Source: Actinostola sp. cb2023
Lineage: Eukaryota > Cnidaria > Anthozoa > Actiniaria > Actinostolidae
Assembly (NCBI GenBank): GCA_033675265.1
Contig: JAUJYZ010000974.1
Span: forward strand, 533,501 to 597,500
Direction of reading: 5' to 3'
DNA length: 64,000 nucleotides
The first letter of the stretch is position 1. Each line of letters opens with the position of its first letter. A model generated the notes under the pieces. The model did not search any database. It saw only the letters and a list, made by a program, of their open reading frames with translations, and had not been told where the DNA came from. Positions 1 to 30,500 of the stretch are shown here, in pieces. The translations under genes were made by a program, and so were the position numbers.

Positions 1-1736
1 TCTTGTTTCATTGTTATATACACCTTACTCGAGGCTCGCGCCACATCCTTCAACATTCCTGGCCGCGTATAACTGGGCTTCAACTCTGTTTTCTTTGTAA
101 GACCAGTGAATGGTAGACTTATTAGTGTTTGGTGCATTGATATGAAGGGTCTTTGAACTAATCAGTAATATCTAGTCAATGATTGCACTACCACCATCGT
201 ACACTGGTGTTTTCCACCTTACAGTTACATACGGTGCTTTGATACCTGTGACAGTAATGTTGGGAGGTCCTGGAGGAGCTATATGATTGAGAATATTATA
301 CGATTTCCAATGGAGTATAGCCCTTCCAAAATGCGCAAAATTGGCCCAAAATAACGATTTCCAATGGACTATAGCCCATGCAAAATGCGCAAAAATGGAT
401 CAAAATAAGCATTTTTGATGGACTATAGCCCATGCACAGTGCGCCAAAACGGCCCAAAATGAGGATTTCTGATGGACTTTTGCCCATGCAAAGTGCGCAA
501 AAATGGATCAAAATGAGGATGTTGGATGGAATGTCGTATCCAACATCACCCAATAAATAAAGTCGCTGCAAACTCAACGTTTAAATCCGCGTCTAGATCA
601 ACAAACCCTCCAACATGTCAACAAGAAAAAATGGGACTGATCGAACTGATCTGGCCGCTAGAGATTGCATGGGGACTGATCGGATGGACGGACAGACAAA
701 CAGATCCATAGTTTTACCGGATAATTAAGCAAGGTAAATACTCATTTTCTTTTTCATCAGATAAGCTTCATCGCACTATGATTATTAAGAGTGATATATT
801 ATTGCATTAATATAACTGGGGTTTAGATTTTCGTGGAGTTCGCAACTCAAATGAACTTCTGTGATAAGATGTTTTCAATGTAAACGGAAAAGGAATCAGA
901 AAGAAATAGAAAAAGAAATTAGAGAAAGAAAAAGATCAGGAAAAATAATATAAAAAAAAGAAGAAATCGTGCCCGCACCGAGAGTCGATCCCTGGGTCGC
1001 TGGTTTCCAAATCCCAGCACTTAACCAGAGGACCACGTTAGTCAAGAAATTTCCATAACAATAACCGCTACACGATAGACTACTAAATTGACCCTCGAAA
1101 ACAATCGGAAGTACAGATAGCTGAAGTGGTACGGGGCAGTCATTTAGGACTAGGATACGACTGTTCCCTCCCTCTTTGACTACTTCGCTGATTGTGTACT
1201 ACCCGATAGCGCGGATGAGGCCGAAATCTTTGTCCTATACGTAACATACGGTGACTCGGCATTTAAGTCCGGGTGTATGGTCGATTTTTAGTGTTTTGCA
1301 TAAATTTCCGAAGAAGCGCGCGGGTTCGAGTCCCGGTGCGGTCATTTTTTTTTGAATTTTTTTTTCGCTGTTTATCCTTTTATTATTCTTTTTCTTTGCA
1401 CTTCAATTGATTTTCTTTAAATGTTTTGACAAAATCCGCTCAGTTTCAAAATGAAAATATTTTTCTACATGGGTACGATATTCTTTTGATTTTAAGGTTT
1501 GTTTACTGTAAACTTATTTTGAATGTTGAGGTTGATCGATTTGTCGTAATTTACTAAGGAACAACGCGTATATTGTGCAGTGAGATTAGGTTCCACTGCG
1601 AACCCAGTATTAACTCGCGTGCTCGCCTCTTTTACCACAGGAAGCCCATACATACGAAATATCGCTGTGGTGTCTCTATACCACAAATCAGTTTCAAATG
1701 GAATATATCTTGTTTCATTGTTATATACACCTTACT

Positions 1737-1990
1737 CGAGGCTCTGCGCGCCACATCCTTCAACATTCCTGGCCGCGTATAACTGGGCTTCAACTCTGTT
1801 TTCTTTGTAAGACCAGTGAATGGTAGACTTATTAGTGTTTGGTGCATTGATATGAAGGGTCTTTGAACTAATCAGTAATATCTAGTCAATGATTGCACTA
1901 CCACCATCGTACACTGGTGTTTTCCACCTTACAGTTACATACGGTGCTTTGATACCTGTGACAGTAATGTTGGGAGGTCCTGGAGGAGCT
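1737..1990 (-). pseudogene. Fibronectin type III exon relic (one per array unit)
   Basis: Read on the minus strand, this part of each unit translates to a typical FN3 start: PPGP, then N-I-T-V-T, then V-T-V-R-W-K-x-P, then Y-D-G-G-S-A-I-I-D. In another frame it carries the FTGLTKKTE segment, and then a terminal LYAARNVEGCGA. These match FN3 strand order: the Pro-rich linker, the B-strand Trp, the DGG turn, the tyrosine-corner region and the N-x-x-G-x-G end. A stop codon follows the D after DGGSAII and a frameshift separates the last strands, so it cannot be translated as a domain. Equivalent relics lie about 29-283 bp after each unit start, e.g. 30-280 and 3456-3709. I infer that an exon of an FN3 gene was captured before the array amplified. 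The donor gene cannot be identified here. Confidence 0.7.
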
Positions 1991-2009
1991 ATATATGATT
2001 GAGAATATT

Positions 2010-2255
2010 AACGATTTCCAATGGAGTATATCCCTTCCAAAATGCGCAAAATTGGCCCAACATAACGATTTCCAATGGACTATAGCCCATGCAAAATGCG
2101 CAAAAATGGATCAAAATAAGCATTTTTGATGGACTATAGCCCATGCACAGTGCGCAAAAACGGCCCAAAATGAGGATTTTTGATGGACTATAGCCCATGC
2201 AAAGTGCGCAAAAATGGATCAAAATGAGGATGTTGGATGGAATGTCGTATCCAAC
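2010..2255. repeat. 54-bp sub-repeat block within each unit (4 to 4.5 copies)
   Basis: Each unit contains four to four and a half copies of a 54-bp motif built around GATGGACTATAGCCCATGC and AAAATGCGCAAAAATGG. Because 54 is divisible by three and the minus strand lacks stops here, each block gives a ~93-codon frame with an 18-residue periodicity. I attribute this to repeat structure, not to a gene. The same motif, more diverged, continues just after the array at 18238-18480. Confidence 0.9.
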
Positions 2256-2688
2256 ATCACCCAATAAATAAAGTCGCTGCAAACTCAACGTTTAAATTCC
2301 GCGTCTAGATCAACAAACCCTCCAACATGTCAACAAGAAAAAATGGGACTGATCGAACTGATCTGGCCGCTAGAGATTGCATGGGGACTGATCGGATGGA
2401 CGGACAGACAAACAGATCCATAGTTTTACCGGATAATTAAGCAAGGTAAATACTCATTTTCTTTTTCATCAGATAAGCTTCATCGCACTATGATTATTAA
2501 GAGTGATATATTATTGCATTAATATAACTGGGGTTTAGATTTTCGTGGAGTTCGCAACTCAAATGAACTTCTGTGATAAGATGTTTTTTCAATGTAAACG
2601 GAAAAGGAATCAGAAAGAAATAATAGAAAAAGAAATTAGAGAAAGAAAAAGATCAGGAAAAATAATATAAAAAAAAAGAAGAAATGGT

Positions 2689-2761
2689 GCCCGCACCGAG
2701 AGTCGATCCCTGGGTCGCTGGTTTCCAAATCCCAGCACTTAACCAGAGGACCACGTTAGTC
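2689..2761 (-). other. tRNA-like (SINE-head-like) relic, one per array unit
   Basis: The minus strand reads TGGTCCTCTGGTTAAG (A-box and D-arm like), then an anticodon-arm-like GCTGG/CCAGC stem, then a degraded B box, GGGATCGACTC, and a tail ending CGGTGCGGGC. The anticodon loop would be about ten bases and the T and acceptor stems do not pair well, so it is not a working tRNA. The best reading is the decayed head of a tRNA-derived SINE or an ancient tRNA fragment. It recurs at the same place in every unit, for example 969-1041. Confidence 0.4.
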
Positions 2762-2995
2762 AAGAAATTTCCATAACAATAACCGCTACACGATAGACTA
2801 CTAAATTGACCCTCGAAAACAATCGGAAGTACAGATAGCTGAAGTGGTACGGGGCAGTCATTTAGGACTAGGATACGACTGTTCCCTCCCTCTTTGACTA
2901 CTTCGCTGATTGTGTACTACCCGATAGCGCGGATGAGGCCGAAATCTTTGTCCTATACGTAACATACGGTGACTCGGCATTTAAGTCCGGGTGTA

Positions 2996-3070
2996 TGGTC
3001 GATTTTTAGTGTTTTGCATAAATTTCCGAAGAAGCGCGCGGGTTCGAGTCCCGGTGCGGTCATTTTTTTT
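2996..3070 (+). promoter_or_regulatory. B-box (TFIIIC-type) motif followed by an oligo-T tract, one per unit
   Basis: GGTTCGAGTCC at 3041-3051 is a perfect match to the Pol III B-box consensus GGTTCGANTCC. It is followed about 12 bases later by a run of eight or nine T, which could act as a Pol III terminator. Upstream TGGTCGATTTT is a weak A-box candidate. No cloverleaf can be folded around it. The motif is unchanged in all ten complete copies, in the opposite orientation to the tRNA-like relic ~290 bp away. Whether it is transcribed or binds TFIIIC is unknown. Confidence 0.45.
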
Positions 3071-6000
3071 TCAGTTTTTTTTTTCGCTGTTTATCCTTTT
3101 ATTATTCTTTTTCTTTGCACTTCAATTGATTTTCTTTAAATGTTTTGACAAAATCCGCTCAGTTTCAAAATAAAAATATTTTTCTACATGGGTACGATAT
3201 TCTTTTGATTTTAAGGTTGTTTTACTGTAAACTTATTTTGAATGTTGAGGTTGATCGATTTGTCGTAATTTACTAAGGAACAACGCGTATATTGTGCAGT
3301 GAGATTAGGTTCCACTGCGAACCCAGTATTAACTCGCGTGCTCGCCTCTTTTACCACAGGAAGCCCATACATACGAAATATCGCTGTGGTGTCTCTATAC
3401 CACAAATCAGTTTCAAATGGAATATATCTTGTTTCATTGTTATATACACCTTACTCGAGGCTCTGCGCGCCACATCCTTCAACATTCCTGGCCGCGTATA
3501 ACTGGGCTTCAACTCTGTTTTCTTTGTAAGACCAGTGAATGGTAGACTTATTAGTGTTTGGTGCATTGATATGAAGGGTCTTTGAACTAATCAGTAATAT
3601 CTAGTCAATGATTGCACTACCACCATCGTACACTGGTGTTTTCCACCTTACAGTTACATACGGTGCTTTGATACCTGTGACAGTAATGTTGGGAGGTCCT
3701 GGAGGAGCTATATGATTGAGAATATTATACGATTTCCAATGGAGTATAGCCCTTCCAAAATGCGCAAAATTGGCCCAACATAACGATTTCCAATGGACTA
3801 TAGCTCATGCAAAATGCGCAAAAATGGATCAAAATAAGCATTTTTGATGGACTATAGCCCATGCACAGTGCGCAAAAACGGCCCAAAATGAGGATTTTTG
3901 ATGGACTATAGCCCATGCAAAGTGCGCAAAAATGGATCAAAATGAGGATGTTGGATGGAATGTCGTATCCAACATCACCCAATAAATAAAGTCGCTGCAA
4001 ACTCAACGTTTAAATTCCGCGTCTAGATCAACAAACCCTCCAACATGTCAACAAGAAAAAATGGGACTGATCGAACTGATCTGGCCGCTAGAGTTGCATG
4101 GGGACTGATCGGATGGACGGACAGACAAACAGATCCATAGTTTTACCGGATAATTAAGCAAGGTAAATACTCATTTTCTTTTTCATCAGATAAGCTTCAT
4201 CGCACTATGATTATTAAGAGTGATATATTATTGCATTAATATAACTGGGGTTTAGATTTTCGTGGAGTTCGCAACTCAAATGAACTTCTGTGATAAGATG
4301 TTTTCAATGTAAACGGAAAAGGAATCAGAAAGAAATAGAAAAAGAAATTAGAGAAAGAAAAAGATCAGGAAAAATAATATAAAAAAAAGAAGAAAAATGG
4401 TGCCCGCACCGAGAGTCGATCCCTGGGTCGCTGGTTTCCAAATCCCAGCACTTAACCAGAGGACCACGTTAGTCAAGAAATTTCCATAACAATAACCGCT
4501 ACACGATAGACTACTAAATTGACCCTCGAAAACAATCGGAAGTACAGATAGCTGAAGTGGTACGGGGCAGTCATTTAGGACTAGGATACGACTGTTCCCT
4601 CCCTCTTTGACTACTTCGCTGATTGTGTACTACCCGATAGCGCGGATGAGGCCGAAATCTTTGTCCTATACGTAACATACGGTGACTCGGCATTTAAGTC
4701 CGGGTGTATGGTCGATTTTTAGTGTTTTGCATAAATTTCCGAAGAAGCGCGCGGGTTCGAGTCCCGGTGCGGTCATTTTTTTTTCAGTTTTTTTTTTTTT
4801 CGCTGTTTATCCTTTTATTATTCTTTTTCTTTGCACTCAATTGATTTTCTTTAAATGTTTTGACAAAATCCGCTCAGTTTCAAAATAAAAATATTTTTCT
4901 ACATGGGTACGATATTCTTTTGATTTTAAGGTTGTTTTACTGTAAACTTATTTTGAATGTTGAGGTTGATCGATTTGTCGTAATTTACTAAGGAACAACG
5001 CGTATATTGTGCACTGAGATTAGGTTCCACTGCGAACCCAGTATTAACTCGCGTGCTCGCCTCTTTTACCACAGGAAGCCCATACATACGAAATATCGCT
5101 GTGGTGTCTCTATACCACAAATCAGTTTCAAATGGAATATATCTTGTTTCATTGTTATATACACCTTACTCGAGGCTCTGCGCGCCACATCCTTCAACAT
5201 TCCTGGCCGCGTATAACTGGGCTTCAACTCTGTTTTCTTTGTAAGACCAGTGAATGGTAGACTTATTAGTGTTTGGTGCATTGATATGAAGGGTCTTTGA
5301 ACTAATCAGTGATATCTAGTCAATGATTGCACTACTACCATCGTACACTGGTGTTTTCCACCTTACAGTTACATACGGTGCTTTGATACCTGTGACAGTA
5401 ATGTTGGGTGGTCCTGGAGGAGCTAGCTATATGATTGAGAATATTAACGATTTCCAATGGAGAACATTTTCCAAAATGCGCAAAATTGGCCCAAAATAAC
5501 GATTTCCAATGGACTATAGCCCATGCAAAATGCGCAAAAATGGATCAAAATAAGCATTTTTGATGGACTATAGCCCATGCAAAATGCGCAAAAATGGCTC
5601 AAAATGAGGATTTTTGATGGACTATAGCCCATGCAAAATGCGCAAAAATGGATCAAAATGAGGATGTTGGATGGAATGTCGTATCCAACATCACCCAATA
5701 AATAAAGTCGCTGCAAACTCAACGTTTAAATTCCGCGTCTAGATCAACAAACCCTCCAACATGTCAACAAGAAAAAATGGGACTGATCGAACTGATCTGG
5801 CCGCTAGAGATTGCATGGGGACTGATCGGATGGACGGACAGACAAACAGATCCATAGTTTTACCGGATAATTAAGCAAGGTAAATACTCATTTTCTTTTT
5901 CATCAGATAAGCTTCATCGCACTATGATTATTAAGAGTGATATATTATTGCATTAATATAACTGGGGTTTAGATTTTCGTGGAGTTCGCAACTCAAATGA

Positions 6001-9000
6001 ACTTCTGTGATAAGATGTTTTCAATGTAAACGGAAAAGGAATCAGAAAGAAATAGAAAAAGAAATTAGAGAAAGAAAAAGATCAGGAAAAATAATATAAA
6101 AAAGAAGAAATGGTGCCCGCACCGAGAGTCGATCCCTGGGTCGCTGGTTTCCAAATCCCAGCACTTAACCAGAGGACCACGTTAGTCAAGAAATTTCCAT
6201 AACAATAACCGCTACACGATAGACTACTAAATTGACCCTCGAAAACAATCGGAAGTACAGATAGCTGAAGTGGTACGGGGCAGTCATTTAGGACTAGGAT
6301 ACGACTGTTCCCTCCCTCTTTGACTACTTCGCTGATTGTGTACTACCCGATAGCGCGGATGAGGCCGAAATCTTTGTCCTATACGTAACATACGGTGACT
6401 CGGCATTTAAGTCCGGGTGTATGGTCGATTTTTAGTGTTTTGCATAAATTTCCGAAGAAGCGCGCGGGTTCGAGTCCCGGTGCGGTCATTTTTTTTTCAG
6501 TTTTTTTTTCGCTGTTTATCCTTTTATTATTCTTTTTCTTTGCACTTCAATTGATTTTCTTTAAATGTTTTGACAAAATCCGCTCAGTTTCAAAATAAAA
6601 ATATTTTTCTACATGGGTACGATATTCTTTTGATTTTAAGGTTGTTTTACTGTAAACTTATTTTGAATGTTGAGGTTGATCGATTTGTCGTAATTTACTA
6701 AGGAACAACGCGTATATTGTGCAGTGAGATTAGGTTCCACTGCGAACCCAGTATTAACTCGCGTGCTCGCCTCTTTTACCACAGGAAGCCCATACATACG
6801 AAATATCGCTGTGGTGTCTCTATACCACAAATCAGTTTCAAATGGAATATATCTTGTTTCATTGTTATATACACCTTACTCGAGCTCTGCTGCGCCACAT
6901 CCTTCAACATTCCTGGCCGCGTATAACTGGGCTTCAACTCTGTTTTCTTTGTAAGACCAGTGAATGGTAGACTTATTAGTGTTTGGTGCATTGATATGAA
7001 GGGTCTTTGAACTAATCAGTAATATCTAGTCAATGATTGCACTACCACCATCGTACACTGGTGTTTTCCACCTTACAGTTACATACGGTGCTTTGATACC
7101 TGTGACAGTAATGTTGGGAGGTCCTGGAGGAGCTATATGATTGAGAATATTATACGATTTCCAATGGAGTATAGCCCTTCCAAAATGCGCAAAATTGGCC
7201 CAACATAACGATTTCCAATGGACTATAGCTCATGCAAAATGCGCAAAAATGGATCAAAATAAGCATTTTTGATGGACTATAGCCCATGCACAGTGCGCAA
7301 AAACGGCCCAAAATGAGGATTTTTGATGGACTATAGCCCATGCAAAGTGCGCAAAAATGGATCAAAATGAGGATGTTGGATGGAATGTCGTATCCAACAT
7401 CACCCAATAAATAAAGTCGCTGCAAACTCAACGTTTAAATTCCGCGTCTAGATCAACAAACCCTCCAACATGTCAACAAGAAAAAATGGGACTGATCGAA
7501 CTGATCTGGCCGCTAGAGATTGCATGGGGACTGATCGGATGGACGGACAGACAAACAGATCCATAGTTTTACCGGATAATTAAGCAAGGTAAATACTCAT
7601 TTTCTTTTTCATCAGATAAGCTTCATCGCACTATGATTATTAAGAGTGATATATTATTGCATTAATATAACTGGGGTTTAGATTTTCGTGGAGTTCGCAA
7701 CTCAAATGAACTTCTGTGATAAGATGTTTTCAATGTAAACGGAAAAGGAATCAGAAAGAAATAGAAAAAGAAATTAGAGAAAGAAAAAGATCAGGAAAAA
7801 TAATATAAAAAAAAAGAAGAAATGGTGCCCGCACCGAGAGTCGATCCCTGGGTCGCTGGTTTCCAAATCCCAGCACTTAACCAGAGGACCACGTTAGTCA
7901 AGAAATTTCCATAACAATAACCGCTACACGATAGACTACTAAATTGACCCTCGAAAACAATCGGAAGTACAGATAGCTGAAGTGGTACGGGGCAGTCATT
8001 TAGGACTAGGATACGACTGTTCCCTCCCTCTTTGACTACTTCGCTGATTGTGTACTACCCGATAGCGCGGATGAGGCCGAAATCTTTGTCCTATCGTAAC
8101 ATACGGTGACTCGGCATTTAAGTCCGGGTGTATGGTCGATTTTTAGTGTTTTGCATAAATTTCCGAAGAAGCGCGCGGGTTCGAGTCCCGGTGCGGTCAT
8201 TTTTTTTTCAGTTTTTTTTTCGCTGTTTATCCTTTTATTATTCTTTTTCTTTGCACTTCAATTGATTTTCTTTAAATGTTTTGACAAAATCCGCTCAGTT
8301 TCAAAATAAAAATATTTTTCTACATGGGTACGATATTCTTTTGATTTTAAGGTTGTTTTACTGTAAACTTATTTTGAATGTTGAGGTTGATCGATTTGTC
8401 GTAATTTACTAAGGAACAACGCGTATATTGTGCAGTGAGATTAGGTTCCACTGCGAACCCAGTATTAACTCGCGTGCTCGCCTCTTTTACCACAGGAAGC
8501 CCATACATACGAAATATCGCTGTGGTGTCTCTATACCACAAATCAGTTTCAAATGGAATATATCTTGTTTCATTGTTATATACACCTTACTCGAGGCTCT
8601 GCGCGCCACATCCTTCAACATTCCTGGCCGCGTATAACTGGGCTTCAACTCTGTTTTCTTTGTAAGACCAGTGAATGGTAGACTTATTAGTGTTTGGTGC
8701 ATTGATATGAAGGGTCTTTGAACTAATCAGTAATATCTAGTCAATGATTGCACTACCACCATCGTACACTGGTGTTTTCCACCTTACAGTTACATACGGT
8801 GCTTTGATACCTGTGACAGTAATGTTGGGAGGTCCTGGAGGAGCTATATATGATTGAGAATATTAACGATTTCCAATGGAGTATATCCCTTCCAAAATGC
8901 GCAAAATTGGCCCAAATAACGATTTCCAATGGACTATAGCCCATGCAAAATGCGCAAAAATGGATCAAAATAAGCATTTTTGATGGACTATAGCCCATGC

Positions 9001-20128: not shown

Positions 20129-21549
20129 ATGGCCATGGATCAAGCAAAAGTAGATATGGTACAAAATCTGGAAATAGAGATGATGACGGACCTGTATAAT
20201 CGGTAAGAGTTGCTTTACTGTATGATGAGTGGCTTTGCAGGCGTTTTTAGTCCGGGTTTTAGTGTCGGTCCGACAAAACGCCTGCAAAGTGGACTATGTG
20301 AAATAGTTACACTCACATAAAACTGTATATTTCACATGTGTTAAATTTAACTCGGTTTGGAATATTGGACAACAAAAAATGCTACAGTGTAGTTCACGGC
20401 CTCTTTTGTAAAGATCGGGCTCCCTGTGGTACCGGGGCCATGCATATGATTTTATGATGTCAATTAATGGGATTAATACATGCATTAAAGATATACAGTG
20501 TATTTTCAACAACAAAAACCTACGGTGGCCCATAGGGGACACGCTGCAAATAAGACAAGTTGCTGCAAATAAGACGAGTTGCTGCAAATAAAAAACGAGT
20601 TGCTGCAAATAAGACGAGTTGCTGCAAATAAAACAAGTTGCTGCAAATAAAACGAGTTGCTGCAAATAAAACGAGTTGCTGCAAATAAGACGAGTTACTG
20701 CAAATAAGACGAGTTGCTGCAAATAAAACGAGTCGCTGCAAATAAAACGAGTCGCTGCAAATAAAACGAGTTGCTGCAAGTAAGGTCATAAAACACTGCG
20801 CGCGCAGGGTGCGAGCGAAGACTGGGTTCGACGACTCATGCTTGGTAGCCTAGCCATCCACTTTTCCTCTATGTTTTGTACTGGATGTGGAGGAAATATT
20901 ACTCTCTTAGATGCAAACTTTTGTCCTTCCTGTGGGACACAAGTCAACAAAGATTCGAATAAAAGTCTTTTGGGAGCACAGAAACACCCAAGTTACGTTG
21001 AATTTAAGAAACGAAAAGAAGTTGACAGAACGTCAAAGTTCAAGAACAAGAAATCAAGGCTTGATTAATTGATATCATCGTGCAAGACGTTTATACCATA
21101 CAAGTTGGAATGATGGCCTCGAGAGATGGTGATTTAAAGATTCAACGAGGTAGCAGTCTTCTTATTAAAGTGTCGCCATGTGTCAGCTATGAGACAATAC
21201 ATTTCTTGAAATCTGAGACAAAGAACTAATAACAACATAATTTTCAGGGATTTGGTACTTTGTAAATATAGTGAATGATGTACATTTTGTTGTACATTGT
21301 GCATGTACATATAACTTTGTTAAAGATCTAGAGTTATTTAATATTATAAGTTAAGCCTGGTTCATACTAGGTGACATAAATGCAAAATACACCTTTGCAT
21401 TAGGTTTTATGTTATCATTGTGGACATCACAGCGTAATGGCATAACAGGATTAGTGACATAATATATTTTAAAGCATAACAACATAAAACATCTACATAA
21501 GTTTATATAATTATTGCTATTGTGAACCAGCTTTATTGTCCAGTTCCCT

Positions 21550-21582
<33 letters not shown>

Positions 21583-24500
21583 ACTTGACCCATGTTTGGG
21601 TATAGGGGTGCCGCTGAGGGTTTGAAAACCTGACCCTGTTTAGGACAAAAAAAAACTAAAATACCTACCCTGTCTAGGTCAAAAAAAATCTAAACACTGT
21701 TTAGGGCAAAAAAAGTCTAAAATACCTACCCTGTCTAGGACAACACACTCTATTTTAAGACCCTGTTTAGGACAAAGGACAACATACACATGTAGTCTTC
21801 TTTTACACAATTTTAACGCGTTTTATGTTGATCGATGAGTGCTAAAGACAGGCGAAGCTCGGATCTCAGATAAATGGCTAAATACCGGATAAAACCATAT
21901 TTAACGACGACAATCGTACATTTCCATACCCTGTTTAGGACAGATTCACATAAAATTATATACCCTGTTCAGGACAGAGAGGCCAAAACCATACCCTGTC
22001 CAGCGGCACGTCCCCGTATAGTCCATATATGGGAGTACCCCCCCCCCCCCCCCCCCCCCCGGGTCCAGTTCCAGTTATTGTAAAAATGTTTTATAAAGAA
22101 CACATTCTTTGTTCCTGTTCTCATGGCAAAATCAACACAATATAGTACATTATCCCTCCCGCTGACTCATTAGCATTAAGGTATGGGATGAGACTCCCTG
22201 TCGAGCAATACGACAAAGAGCACATAAGTGCTAATTTTGTCAACAAGAGGGTGGGTTGGGTGGATAGACTTCCACTCGCCATCTCAATCTTGGTGAACTG
22301 ACACATTTGCATAATTAATTCTACCTTATATACTGCTTATTACGTCATCGCACGGGATAATGAATATTCATGAAGTATGAATAGGTTTTTATTGATTACC
22401 AATTTACATAATTTACAATAGAAATCCAATATTATTTATGAATTGGAATTTTTGAGGCATAACAAATTATTAGCACTATTACTAAATAGTGACATTTCTA
22501 GAGTGCAGACAACAAAGGCATGAAAAAGTAGTAAACAATCAGTGCTAAATGGCACTAAACAATAGAAGACAAATAATAACTTTACACCATTTATAGTGCT
22601 ATTTAGTTAGTCAAATCTGTCAGTTTTTTTTGTCTGCACTCTATTGTTTTCTATTGTTTAATTGCTGCTATATATTTAGTACTAATTAGTGGAAATAATT
22701 ACACAAATTGCTCTGGGCAAAGACAAGTATTTCATTTTGCTTGTCTTACATAATTTATGATGTATATTTGTATCAAAATTCAATATTAAAATGTTCAAAT
22801 TTGTAATAGGTTAAATCTTTGAAAAAGGTCAAATGCATCTCCTTCATCAACTGCCATGTTCCACCTACTACATGTACTTTCTAAAATGTGTTCAAAATAT
22901 TCATGATGCATATCATCCTCTACATCAATCTGACAATCTCCTTCAACTTCCTTTATTTTATCTTGATACTGGGATAGTACAATCCATAGAACCTAACTGT
23001 TCTGGTAAAAAATATAAAATATCTGGAACTCCACTGCACTCACTGTATCATGCCTTGACTGCCATATGTAGTGACTGTTCCAGTGATCTCTGACCTTGTC
23101 GAGTTCATTTTGAATAATCTTTGAAAAGCAGAACCATAGACATTTCATGTGAAATTCATTTCCAAGCTCTAGCACACCTGACTGAACCATATCCTTAAAA
23201 AAGTCAATCCACCAGTTAGATCAACTTCTTCTGAAAGTTGCACAACATTTTCTGTCCTATAATCAGATCGGACTATTCTTGGGCATCCGCCACAATTTTG
23301 AACATTATCCAAATACAGTGTAGATGTTATCTTGGGATTGTTGTTGGATTTTACAAGCTCCAACCAAAGTATTCTTCTGCTATATCCACAAATGCATCCG
23401 TGAATAGGGAAGCCATAAGGTTTTAGCTTATTGTAACCTAAAGAAGAAAACACAGTTTATATCATCATCATAAATGAGTTCTTTAAAAACTAAATAAGTT
23501 TTACTATAAAAAATACTAAAAATTATAATATATAAATATTGTCAAATTTGATACATAAAAATCATGGTTACAATTCCAATCTTAATACGTATACACCTAT
23601 TTCAATAATAACGTTGTCGCGTTCAAAGCAACAAGCGTCAAGCCAAGACCAAAGTGAATGCTGGTTATGCCGCTGACAATTATTTAAATCACAATTATTT
23701 CTATGAGGACTAATTACAAAATGTGAACATTTTCACATGTTTGTTTGCGTATCACACTTCGTTCCATAGAAAATACGTCTGATTTCAATAATTTGCCAGC
23801 ACAAAACCAGCATTCACTTCGGTCTTGGCTTGACGCTTGTTGCTTTGAATGCGACAACGTTAGTTGAAATAGGTGTATACATAACAGTATGTTTCCATAT
23901 GGCCTCTCTGTCCTGAACAGGGTATATAATTTTATGTGAGTCTGTCCTAAACAGGGTATGATGCACGATTGTCGTCATTATAAGTATGGTTTTATCCAGT
24001 ATTTAGCCATCCGAGATCCAAGACATTTGCCAACGTGTTAAAATTATGTAAAATATAGTGTGTATTTGTACTTTGTCCTAAACAGGGTCCTAAAATATGA
24101 ATCTTTAGAGGTAACAGTGGCGTCAACTCAACCCAAACTCAGGGGGTTTCACTTGACTGGTGCATTACTACATGGCAATTTATTGATTATCCACAAGGTG
24201 TATAACTTTACATTAATGTATTAAGCTTAAGTCTTATATTTTTTTTATTATTTTTACTGTAATCAATCATGAAAGATACTGTCTGCGCAACTACTGGAGT
24301 ACTGGCTACTACAATTAACTCACCATCAATATGCCAGCAAAAACTAAGTCCACTTGAAACACAGTTCATTCGTCTAAGCCATCTCTTTGCCTTCTCTTCT
24401 ACTCCATTTGGATCGATTTCTTTCATTTAATAGCGTTTGAACCACGCTACGAGGAATATGCATATATGATGTTCTAACTGACTGAGGGGAGAGAGCGACT

Positions 24501-27500
24501 TGCTATCCAGTTACACCATGATGTTTGTTCAGTAAACTAACAATATCTTTGTAGCGATATCCTCGGTGAAAGTACATCTTAATAAACACAGTAATATCTT
24601 TGTTGACTTGTGAGGAAGGACAAAAGTTTGCATCTAAGAGAGTAATATTTCCTCCACATCCAGTACAAAACATAGAGGAAAAGTGGATGGCTAGGCTACC
24701 AAGCATGAGTCGTCGAACCCAGTCTTCGCTCGCACCCTGCGCGCGCAGTGTTTTATGACCTTACTTGCAGCAACTCGTTTTATTTGCAGCGACTCGTTTT
24801 ATTTGCAGCAACTCGTTTTATTTGCAGCAACTCGTCTTATTTGCAGCAACTCGTCTTATTTGCAGCAACTCGTTTTAATTGCAGCAACTCGTTTTTTATT
24901 TCCAGCAACTCGTCTTATTTGCAGCAACTCGTTTTTTATTTGCAGCAACTCGTCTTATTTGCAGCAACTCGTTTTTTATTTGCAGCAACTCGTCTTATTT
25001 GCAGCAACCCATCTTATTTGCAGCGTGTCCCCTATGGGCCACCGTAAAAACCCCTTAGCTAGGTTGCTCATAAATTAAAATGTACTAAGACGTTATTACT
25101 CGGGCTTCCTGTTGATTGCCTAAGTTTAAAAATGCAGTTTTTGTAATAATTATTTTCGTCATCATGAGCTGGTAGACATAGCGGAAAAACTGCAAAGCTG
25201 CTGTTTTCATACAGTTTTCATTAACTGGCAATGATACATCAAAAACTGCAATTGATACATTTGTGCTACCATTACTCAAAACTTGTGGCAAAATCTTATT
25301 AAGTTACAGTAAAGCTTCTCGGAGATATTTACAAAAACAATGTTTTTTCTGCTGATCAAAACATTACCTCTCCCAAAGTACAAGGCCTTATATCTCTGAG
25401 AGCCATTCACCGAATTTTGGTGGAATTTGATATTTTGTTATTTGAGCATAAAAGGGCTTCTATGCAAAATATTGAGCTTAACAACCTATATGTGTCCTTA
25501 TTAGAAGAGGCTATAAAACGTTATTCCGCTCTGCCGAGCTGGTATTAATTATTGTTGACTGTGGAAATTCTGTTTTACAGTCAATTGTGCTGTAATAGGC
25601 TAAAACTACTTCTGTATGATGATAGAAATAAGTTATTTAATAAGAACCCTGAGTGCACACTCCTAGAGCATCTTGTTAAAATAATCCATTGGCAGTACAT
25701 TGCATTGAAGTACATGTATGCTGTTGGCAGTACATTGCATTGAAGTACATGTACATGTACATGCTGTTGGCAGTACATTGCATTGAAGTACATGTATGCT
25801 GTTGGCAGTACATTGCATTGAAGTACATGTACATGTATGCTGTTGGCAGTACATTGCATTGAAGTACATGTACATGTATGCTGTTGGCAGTACATTGCAT
25901 TGAAGTACATGTACATGTATGCTGTTGGCAGTACATTGCATTGAAGTACATGTACATGTATGCTGTTGGCAGTACATTGCATTGAAGTACATGTACATGT
26001 ATGCTGTTGGCAGTACATTGCATTGAAGTACATGTATGCTGTTGGCAGTACATTGCATTGAAGTACATGTACATGTACATGCTGTTGGCAGTACATTGCA
26101 TTGAAGTACATGTACATGTATGCTGTTGGCAGTACATTGCATTGAAGTACATGTACATGCTGTTGGCAGTACATTGCATTGAAGTACATGTACATGTACA
26201 TGCTGTTGGCAGTACATTGCATTGAAGTACATGTACATGTATGCTGTTGGCAGTACATTGCATTGAAGTACATGTACATGTATGCTGTTGGCAGTACATT
26301 GCATTGAAGTACATGTATGCTGTTGGCAGTACATTGCATTGAAGTACATGTACATGTATGCTGTTGGCAGTACATTGCATTGAAGTACATGTACATGTAC
26401 ATGCTGTTGGCAGTACATTGCATTGAAGTACATGTACATGTACATGCTGTTGGCAGTACATTGCATTGAAGTACATGTACATGTATGCTGTTGGCAGTAC
26501 ATTGCATTGAAGTACATGTACATGTATGCTGTTGGCAGTACATTGCATTGAAGTACATGTACATGTATGCTGTTGGCAGTACATTGCATTGAAGTACATG
26601 TACATGCTGTTGGCAGTACATTGCATTGAAGTACATGTACATGTACATGCTGTTGGCAGTACATTGCATTGAAGTACATGTACATGTATGCTGTTGGCAG
26701 TACATTGCATTGAAGTACATGTACATGTACATGCTGTTGGCAGTACATTGCATTGAAGTACATGTACATGTACATGCTGTTGGCAGTACATTGCATTGAA
26801 GTACATGTACATGTATGCTGTTGGCAGTACATTGCATTGAAGTACATGTACATGTATGCTGTTGGCAGTACATTGCATTGAAGTACATGTACATGTATGC
26901 TGTTGGCAGTACATTGCATTGAAGTACATGTACATGTATGCTGTTGGCAGTACATTGCATTGAAGTACATGTACATGTATGCTGTTGGCAGTACATTGCA
27001 TTGAAGTACATGTACATGTATGCTGTTGGCAGTACATTGCATTGAAGTACATGTACATGTATGCTGTTGGCAGTACATTGCATTGAAGTACATGTACATG
27101 TATGCTGTTGGCAGTACATTGCATTGAAGTACATGTACATGTATGCTGTTGGCAGTACATTGCATTGAAGTACATGTACATGTATGCTGTTGGCAGTACA
27201 TTGCATTGAAGTACATGTACATGTATGCTGTTGGCAGTACATTGCATTGAAGTACATGTACATGTATGCTGTTGGCAGTACATTGCATTGAAGTACATGT
27301 ACATGTATGCTGTTGGCAGTACATTGCATTGAAGTACATGTACATGTATGCTGTTGGCAGTACATTGCATTGAAGTACATGTACATGTATGCTGTTGGCA
27401 GTACATTGCATTGAAGTACATGTACATGTATGCTGTTGGCAGTACATTGCATTGAAGTACATGTACATGTATGCTGTTGGCAGTACATTGCATTGAAGTA

Positions 27501-30500
27501 CATGTACATGTATGCTGTTGGCAGTACATTGCATTGAAGTACATGTACATGTACATGCTGTTGGCAGTACATTGCATTGAAGTACATGTACATGTATGCT
27601 GTTGGCAGTACATTGCATTGAAGTACATGTACATGTATGCTGTTGGCAGTACATTGCATTGAAGTACATGTACATGTATGCTGTTGGCAGTACATTGCAT
27701 TGAAGTACATGTACATGTATGCTGTTGGCAGTACATTGCATTGAAGTACATGTACATGTATGCTGTTGGCAGTACATTGCATTGAAGTACATGTACATGT
27801 ATGCTGTTGACAGTACATTGCATTGAAGTACATGTACATGTATGCTGTTGGCAGTACATTGCATTGAAGTACATGTACATGTATGCTGTTGGCAGTACAT
27901 TGCATTGAAGTACATGTACATGTATGCTGTTGGCAGTACATTGCATTGAAGTACATGTACATGTATGCTGTTGGCAGTACATTGCATTGAAGTACATGTA
28001 CATGCTGTTGGCAGTACATTGCATTGAAGTACATGTACATGTATGCTGTTGGCAGTACATTGCATTGAAGTACATGTACATGTATGCTGTTGGCAGTACA
28101 TTGCATTGAAGTACATGTACATGTATGCTGTTGGCAGTACATTGCATTGAAGTACATGTACATGTATGCTGTTGGCAGTACATTGCATTGAAGTACATGT
28201 ACATGTATGCTGTTGGCAGTACATTGCATTGAAGTACATGTACATGTATGCTGTTGGCAGTACATTGCATTGAAGTACATGTACATGTATGCTGTTGGCA
28301 GTACATTGCATTGAAGTACATGTACATGTATGCTGTTGGCAGTACATTGCATTGAAGTACATGTACATGTATGCTGTTGGCAGTACATTGCATTGAAGTA
28401 CATGTACATGTATGCTGTTGGCAGTACATTGCATTGAAGTACATGTACATGTATGCTGTTGGCAGTACATTGCATTGAAGTACATGTACATGTATGCTGT
28501 TGGCAGTACATTGCATTGAAGTACATGTACATGTATGCTGTTGGCAGTACATTGCATTGAAGTACATGTACATGTACATGCTGTTGGCAGTACATTGCAT
28601 TGAAGTACATGTACATGTATGCTGTTGGCAGTACATTGCATTGAAGTACATGTACATGTATGCTGTTGGCAGTACATTGCATTGAAGTACATGTACATGT
28701 ATGCTGTTGGCAGTACATTGCATTGAAGTACATGTACATGTATGCTGTTGGCAGTACATTGCATTGAAGTACATGTACATGTACATGATGTTGGCAGTAC
28801 ATTGCATTGAAGTACATGTACATGTATGCTGTTGGCAGTACATTGCATTGAAGTACATGTACATGTATGCTGTTGGCAGTACATTGCATTGAAGTACATG
28901 TACATGCTGTTGGCAGTACATTGCATTGAAGTACATGTACATGTATGCTGTTGGCAGTACATTGCATTGAAGTACATGTACATGTATGCTGTTGGCAGTA
29001 CATTGCATTGAAGTACATGTACATGTATGCTGTTGGCAGTACATTGCATTGAAGTACATGTACATGTATGCTGTTGGCAGTACATTGCATTGAAGTACAT
29101 GTACATGTATGCTGTTGGCAGTACATTGCATTGAAGTACATGTACATGCTGTTGGCAGTACATTGCATTGAAGTACATGTACATGTATGCTGTTGGCAGT
29201 ACATTGCATTGAAGTACATGTACATGCTGTTGGCAGTACATTGCATTGAAGTACATGTACATGTATGCTGTTGGCAGTACATTGCATTGAAGTACATGTA
29301 CATGTATGCTGTTGGCAGTACATTGCATTGAAGTACATGTACATGTATGCTGTTGGCAGTACATTGCATTGAAGTACATGTACATGTATGCTGTTGGCAG
29401 TACATTGCATTGAAGTACATGTACATGCTGTTGGCAGTACATTGCATTGAAGTACATGTACATGTATGCTGTTGGCAGTACATTGCATTGAAGTACATGT
29501 ACATGTATGCTGTTGGCAGTACATTGCATTGAAGTACATGTACATGTATGCTGTTGGCAGTACATTGCATTGAAGTACATGTATGCTGTTGGCAGTACAT
29601 TGCATTGAAGTACATGTACATGCTGTTGGCAGTACATTGCATTGAAGTACATGTACATGTATGCTGTTGGCAGTACATTGCATTGAAGTACATGTACATG
29701 TATGCTGTTGGCAGTACATTGCATTGAAGTACATGTACATGTATGCTGTTGGCAGTACATTGCATTGAAGTACATGTACATGTATGCTGTTGGCAGTACA
29801 TTGCATTGAAGTACATGTACATGTATGCTGTTGGCAGTACATTGCATTGAAGTACATGTACATGTATGCTGTTGGCAGTACATTGCATTGAAGTACATGT
29901 ACATGTATGCTGTTGGCAGTACATTGCATTGAAGTACATGTACATGTATGCTGTTGGCAGTACATTGCATTGAAGTACATGTACATGTATGCTGTTGGCA
30001 GTACATTGCATTGAAGTACATGTACATGTATGCTGTTTTTGCTCCAGCCACAGTCAAATTTGTCACGTGAACCTGAAGAACTTTCAATTATGGTGATCAT
30101 TATTTTTATGTATAGCATAGAATTATTGTTTTGAAAGTGTCTGTATAAACTGGCTCAACTTTGTATGAGAATGTCAGACTTGGACAGTGTCTGTATTAAG
30201 CAGGTGTTCGTTAAGTGACAATAAATTTAAGATTAAAGTATTTACATCTGATGGAGAAAGAAATGCAGCGTTCTTGTGCACTTTAGTCCCCTCAAATTCA
30301 GATGTAGTGTAGTGCGGAGAGATGGGACTGCCATTTTACGTAGACATTCAAGCCATTTTAATGTATTGCTATTCTTTTTGATCCTATAAAATGTCCTTGA
30401 AATATGGGCATCTTAGTGCCCTTGATGTTCCTATTTTAGATTGAGATACATGTAACTGTTAGGGATGTTTTTAATTATGTTGATGGTAACAAATTGCTTG

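Follow-up and report, generated by a model that had tools for sequence, protein, structure and literature searches.

A dead IS3EU transposon in Actinostola sp. and its two-gene relatives with a HECT-type partner protein

We report here the analysis of a transposon insertion, at positions 20521-25046, in a stretch of 64,000 nucleotides from Actinostola sp. cb2023 (assembly GCA_033675265.1, contig JAUJYZ010000974.1, positions 533,501 to 597,500), the whole of which is referred to below as the window. Overall, it is probable that the insertion is a dead copy of an IS3EU element whose intact members carry two convergent genes, one for the transposase and one for a HECT-type accessory protein, that zinc ribbons often lie near or within the terminal repeats at the starts of these genes, and that copying between the two arms has made the two protein heads identical. 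Among these parts, it is the two-gene structure of the IS3EU element, HECT-type partner included, that the sequences establish firmly.

The insertion and its intact relative

By its sequence the insertion is a complete one of IS3EU type with the anatomy of a cut-and-paste element, and this assignment is based on TA..TA termini, a 6-bp target duplication and an integrase-like DDE transposase. The termini are TACGG..CCGTA (TACGGTGG..CCACCGTA), with both ends reading TACGGTGGCCCATAGGGGAC inwards. The outer inverted arms (20521-20633 and 24934-25046) are 97% complementary over 113 nt, and those of 20649-20931 and 24613-24895 are 99% complementary over 283 nt. Each side is laid out as a 19-bp tandem array, about 90 bp, and then an ATG followed by the zinc-ribbon codons. 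When the arms are aligned end to end, starting from TACGGTGG at 20521 and 25046 and going inwards to about 20954 and 24596, they differ in the length of the array and by a 6-bp gap on the right arm, and they agree on both sides up to ...GTCAACAAAGAT, past which the left arm continues into a serine/lysine-rich basic stretch and the right arm into the start of the helix-turn-helix (HTH)-like region of the transposase. The alignment confirms the claim of the first-pass annotation that the inverted repeats run into coding sequence with a ribbon start at both ends. The inverted-repeat feature is not due to chance, since 49 matches to the right end of the element, some of them pieces of one locus, are found in its own genome, the 424 Mb assembly containing the window.

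An intact relative comes from a protein search of this genome with the top-scoring database transposase (P0001), which gives 103 matches. Among these, the match on contig C1027 carries the ribbon proper to the window family; the stretch fetched there is denoted L049. The element in L049 is 6513 bp long, with the same termini as in the window and a CCTGGT duplication on both flanks. Its right gene is an rva_4 transposase in two exons, the first with the ribbon, the HTH-like region and WHIDG at a GTAAGT donor, the second with RSDCGTEN and NQRIE, and all three of these DDE-type motifs are intact. Its left gene begins with 44 residues identical to the transposase head and goes on with a 342-codon frame that has a basic stretch and a V-x-V-G domain; downstream on the same strand there are a CUE-domain frame (E 1.7e-05, above the cut-off) and a further frame of 384 codons with a HECT domain (E 2e-14). 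These left frames presumably make up one spliced gene and one protein, which is supported by the left protein of a second family, C1005, being one uninterrupted frame of 721 codons. The two arms of L049 have the same DNA sequence, starting at the terminus and reaching a little beyond the ribbon codons, apart from an array that is 57 bp longer in one of them. Both genes had been proposed to belong to the element and to start with a ribbon inside its repeats, and the window copy and L049 bear this out.

The features of the window copy are as follows, with positions and strand:

20515..20520, no strand: left target-site duplication AAAACC, an exact match to 25047-25052
20521..20954, plus: left terminal inverted repeat from the arm alignment, ribbon codons included
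20543..20783, plus: 19-bp tandem array, 12.6 copies of the unit GCTGCAAATAAAACGAGTT, candidate transposase-binding sites
20871..21068, plus: left gene, first frame, zinc ribbon (20871-20954) and then basic segment, stop at 21066-21068
21074..21229, plus: left gene, second frame (frame 2), start of the ubiquitin-like (V-x-V-G-M-M) domain by comparison with the intact L049
22798..22992, minus: C-terminal fragment of the transposase (tblastn with P0001)
22993..23220, minus: fragment of transposase exon 2, second part of PF24764, with the NQRIE (catalytic Glu) stretch missing ahead of it
23169..23437, minus: fragment of transposase exon 2 matching PF24764, with an acceptor-like TTCTTCTTTAG just before it
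24324..24426, minus: 3' part of transposase exon 1, ending at a donor-like G/GTGAGT
24506..24673, minus: start of the transposase, ribbon without its fourth Cys and then the start of the HTH-like region
24596..25046, minus: right terminal inverted repeat from the arm alignment, ribbon codons included
24761..25024, minus: 19-bp tandem array, 13.6 copies of the GCTGCAAATAAAACGAGTT unit
25047..25052, no strand: right target-site duplication AAAACC

With its genes in this state, the window copy is judged to be dead and non-autonomous. In the left gene, the ribbon has weak matches to zinc-ribbon models (PF13240 with E 1.2e-04, under the curated cut-off), a frame break behind the basic stretch precedes the V-x-V-G-M-M piece, and the ubiquitin-like domain is cut short, with the CUE and HECT parts missing altogether. 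The right head (24673-24596, minus strand) is the same as the left head except for 6 bp lost, owing to which it reads CPSSQVNKD and the fourth cysteine of the ribbon on the transposase side is gone. The right gene had been taken for an integrase-type transposase, correctly so, as PF24764 (rva_4, integrase-like) matches it in two pieces with E 1.4e-07 and 6.8e-08. An insertion after WHIDG interrupting this gene was considered and dropped, as donor- and acceptor-like splice sites flank the gap, and the idea is also countered by several database relatives (e.g. P0003, P0006 and P0007) that begin exactly at the following GYDKLKPYG.

The other copies in the genome point to a common history. Both termini are present in 18 of 20 fetched loci, and together with the window these give 19 complete elements, all except L011 having an exact 6-bp duplication, of varied sequence from copy to copy. 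In comparison with the intact L049, and in a coverage recount including short and far-left segments, all 19 lack the same three blocks. On the left side the coverage stops at L049 position 775, and 800-4100, which contains CUE, HECT and the remainder of the ubiquitin-like domain, is uncovered; the second block is 5205-5310, including NQRIE at 5212-5226, and the third is 5775-5925, in the middle of exon 1. Because the three losses are shared by all 19, these copies would be a single deletion derivative that was amplified in trans. In two of them the left frame still reads through without a break as far as the V-x-V-G-M-M part, starting inside the ribbon in L011 and immediately behind it in L020. 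In addition, a second transposase-like match, probably of another IS3EU family, is located on the opposite strand at 6669-7391 of the reoriented L017 stretch, adjoining its copy of the window family.

A few repeats lie in and beside the window copy. A nested repeat with poly-G and poly-C borders and ACCCTGTTTAGGACA-type units is present at 21540-22070 and 23900-23960, and a 61-bp piece of it is found inverted (98%) within the transposase intron, which also contains a small foldback at 23609-23862 (arms of 92 nt, 85% complementary, with a spacing of 70 nt). About 600 bp to the right of the element starts a long tandem satellite (25581-30154) with a CTGTTGGCAGTACATTGCATTGAAGTACATGTACATGTATG-like unit, in which three minus-strand frames are open.

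The HECT-type partner and its pairing with the transposase

On the evidence of sequence and predicted fold, the left protein is of the HECT ubiquitin-ligase type, with a HECT fold and the catalytic cysteine in its C-lobe. Its predicted layout is a zinc ribbon, a basic stretch, a ubiquitin-like beta-grasp domain, a CUE domain or a helix like a ubiquitin-interacting motif, and the HECT domain; the V-x-V-G-M-M part corresponds to the ubiquitin-like domain, as a predicted fold. Among its relatives in the protein database (113 listed) are proteins from Dendronephthya, Stylophora, Desmophyllum, Oculina and Paramuricea, as well as two fish proteins at the weak end, and some of those from coral genomes have the same N-terminal ribbon. 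A further match, P0234, is a transposase that matches the left protein over the head only (81% over 8%). The left head alone (94 residues) as a protein query gives one candidate and none significant. Another entry, P0121, is labelled as from a Gammaproteobacteria bin (DSY43) and has the same sequence as this animal family's HECT protein; the longest contig of P0121 and that of P0234, with its similar head, are each of 4725 bases, so that the two probably represent one host contaminant contig in a bacterial bin carrying both genes.

We then consider where these genes stand with respect to each other in the genome. The left protein of C1005 as query gives 105 matches, 72 rows of which were grouped, the other 33 being apparently further pieces of loci that the list already contains; for the transposase, 102 of 1006 candidates were scored, giving 102 listed loci. 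A transposase is located within 12 kb of 32 of the 67 left-gene loci, and in all 32 the two genes are convergent. The tail-to-tail pairing of transposase and HECT gene is thus general in this genome. The earlier reading of the left gene as an accessory gene of the element, and not of the host, holds up well on these 32 convergent pairs and on the intact element with its own 6-bp duplication. In public collections the transposase query finds two loci in genome_contigs and none in viral_contigs; inspection by eye of the open reading frames at the two loci reveals neither a left-gene partner nor a pair of ribbons, and these loci were not used.

The ribbon heads across families and the origin of their identity

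Five autonomous families were read at both ends. In C1027 the heads are identical and within the repeats. In C1005, the transposase of which matches PF24764 at 106.7 bits, a 504-bp repeat at 91% reaches into both genes, the heads share 34 of 43 residues, and the 300 bp upstream are nearly identical. Both genes have a ribbon in C84 and C1247 as well, with 9 and 10 of 27 residues identical respectively; the repeats of C84 end ahead of the genes, and the left repeat of C1247 is hardly covered by the fetched stretch. The fifth family, C1067, has repeats of about 1.2 kb that stop short of both genes. In the protein database, a strict N-terminal ribbon is found in 39 of the 91 transposases of at least 360 residues, among 120 listed of 362 matches. 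This list and the reading of the five families show that one or both proteins commonly begin with a ribbon, and that identical heads are restricted to some families. Therefore the shared head proposed in the first-pass annotation finds no support as a general design: the repeats run into both ribbons in two of the five families (C1027 and C1005), and a ribbon at one end only, the case which that annotation had itself named as contradicting it, is found in C1067, on the left gene.

Concerning the origin of the identical heads, we compared the arms over the 5' and ribbon region in 20 elements including L049. The two arms of one copy differ by 0.95% on average, while for different copies the difference is 1.53% between left and right arms, 1.97% between left arms and 0.81% between right arms. 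Some markers are found on the arm opposite to the usual one. The left arm of L027 has a 3-bp deletion which is otherwise confined to right arms, and it lacks the 9-bp insertion of its subfamily's left arms; the GATCAGTGG insertion is present in the left arms of L011 and L014 and in the right arm of L025. Such swapped markers fit occasional arm-to-arm conversion, short of a proof, and from them we infer that this process accounts for the identity of the heads in C1027. For the identical heads, the best reading is copying from arm to arm in some families, superposed on a two-gene transposon with its own E3-type partner.

Several observations weigh against this account. Right arms of different copies are closer to each other (0.81%) than the two arms of one copy (0.95%), therefore conversion within a copy is not the only force, and the C1005 heads differ at 9 of 43 residues despite the nearly identical DNA just upstream. 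For C84 and C1247, comparing the two ribbons within each family shows no greater similarity than comparing ribbons across families, and this argues against a required common binding partner; in C1067 the ribbon is on the HECT gene only. In C947 and C14 no ribbon is seen next to the transposase start, and the roughly 0.7 kb ahead of the HECT-gene exon also show none, although a longer intron is possible there; likewise none is adjacent to the transposase in C581/C790, C430 and C1570, which were read on the transposase side. The ribbon models score under the Pfam cut-offs, and among the left-type proteins of at least 560 residues a strict ribbon is found in only 7 of 51 (113 listed), although for some of the others the called frame may leave out a first exon that lies apart. 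Finally, 35 of the 67 HECT-gene loci are without a listed transposase (102 loci) within 12 kb.

The extension of the repeats into the genes may be a passive by-product, and we give this about even chances. The arms would grow and be homogenised by template switching or conversion, the ribbon codons being simply next in line, and the head of the ligase need not share the target of the transposase head. Consistent with this, the upstream non-coding DNA of L049 is as identical as the ribbon codons, arm-type markers are located on the other arm in some copies (L027, and L025 versus L011 and L014), and the inner edge of the repeat varies by family. However, the repeat edge in the aligned arms of the window family lies immediately behind the ribbon. 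Ribbons also open both proteins in C84, where the repeat ends before reaching them, and in C1247, where they differ, and recent copying leaves such a likeness at the level of class unexplained.

A role for the head in targeting is put forward tentatively. The transposase would bind the 19-bp arrays through its ribbon and HTH-like region and move the element; the HECT protein would be brought by its own ribbon to the same DNA, or to the transposase or the same partner, and would ubiquitylate, at the element, either the transposition complex itself or a factor of the host that acts in silencing or repair. The ribbon encoded in the repeats would in this way direct both proteins to the element ends, with ubiquitylation during or after transposition, and gene conversion from arm to arm through the 5' regions and the ribbon codons would have produced the shared head and would keep the two heads matched.

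Somewhat less likely still is a purposeful economical design, in which one DNA-binding ribbon is kept identical by selection together with its position in the repeat, and both proteins bind the same ends. The heads of L049, fully identical and with a match that stops just after the ribbon codons, would suit such a design, but the ribbons differ in two of the five families, the transposase ribbon is absent in one, and with a strict ribbon in 39 of 91 long transposases many of these enzymes seem to do without it. The left gene might also be a HECT gene of the host that was captured and has no part in transposition. Proteins of the HECT type belong to the normal protein set of hosts, and one of the weak matches is a fish protein annotated as G2/M phase-specific E3 ubiquitin-protein ligase. 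However, the 67 loci in one genome with 32 of 32 neighbouring pairs convergent, the position of the gene inside a complete element with target duplication, and the presence of relatives in several coral genomes, of which some share the N-terminal ribbon, make this highly improbable.

Comparison with known transposons

The IS3EU / GingerRoot superfamily (Kojima and Bao 2023; PMC10045372) is described in the passages compared as having TA..TA termini, usually 6-bp target duplications, and an integrase-like DDE transposase without the HHCC motif. In its termini, 6-bp duplication and integrase-like DDE transposase the window element is alike. These same passages are silent on any HECT gene or ubiquitin-like domain, and equally on zinc-ribbon heads and on repeats entering the genes. 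The fungal IS3EU elements, in the parts of the report considered, have termini TAYGG..CCRTA and 6-bp duplications, and their TET-bearing families carry an alpha-kinase gene opposite in orientation to the transposase (PMC12730594). An oppositely oriented accessory enzyme is thus already known in the superfamily; it is an alpha-kinase (plus TET/JBP) in the fungal elements, whereas in the cnidarian element it is a HECT-type ligase, and the terms "ubiquitin" and "zinc ribbon" are absent from the main text of the fungal report. No report of IS3EU combined with HECT was found in the open-licence literature, Repbase entries being outside the search, and no HECT gene in a DNA transposon was recognised among the matches listed from titles and abstract openings in the wider literature.

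The family is a clear example in nature of terminal inverted repeats that have taken in coding sequence, and uncharacterised HECT-domain proteins in coral annotations are likely to stem in part from elements of this kind. The closest parallels for its enzyme, in the sources as far as consulted, are Ginger1 and Helitrons. Ginger1, likewise of integrase type, is connected with the ubiquitin/SUMO system by OTU or Ulp1 protease domains, which led its authors to propose a part for the ubiquitin pathway in transposition (PMC2836005). However, in Ginger1 the transposase itself carries a domain for the removal of ubiquitin or SUMO, while the cnidarian element has a separate gene resembling a ubiquitin-attaching enzyme. 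Ginger1 also has a CCGG- or CCGT-specific 4-bp target duplication, instead of the 6 bp of varied sequence in the window family. Its transposase is further marked by an H2C2 zinc finger and by YPYY and GPY/F motifs; Pfam scans of the window pieces and of the C1005 transposase list no H2C2 finger, although such a scan could miss one, and no search was aimed at YPYY and GPY/F. Helitrons, those of cnidarians included, carry VTD or OTU deubiquitinases (PMC9741609); they too are transposons bearing a ubiquitin enzyme, but they are rolling-circle elements and the enzymes are deubiquitinases. Whereas ubiquitin-removing enzymes are known in several transposons, the look-alike of a ubiquitin-attaching enzyme carried by this element, found next to the transposase at many loci of a single genome, would make the suggested role of the pathway directly testable.
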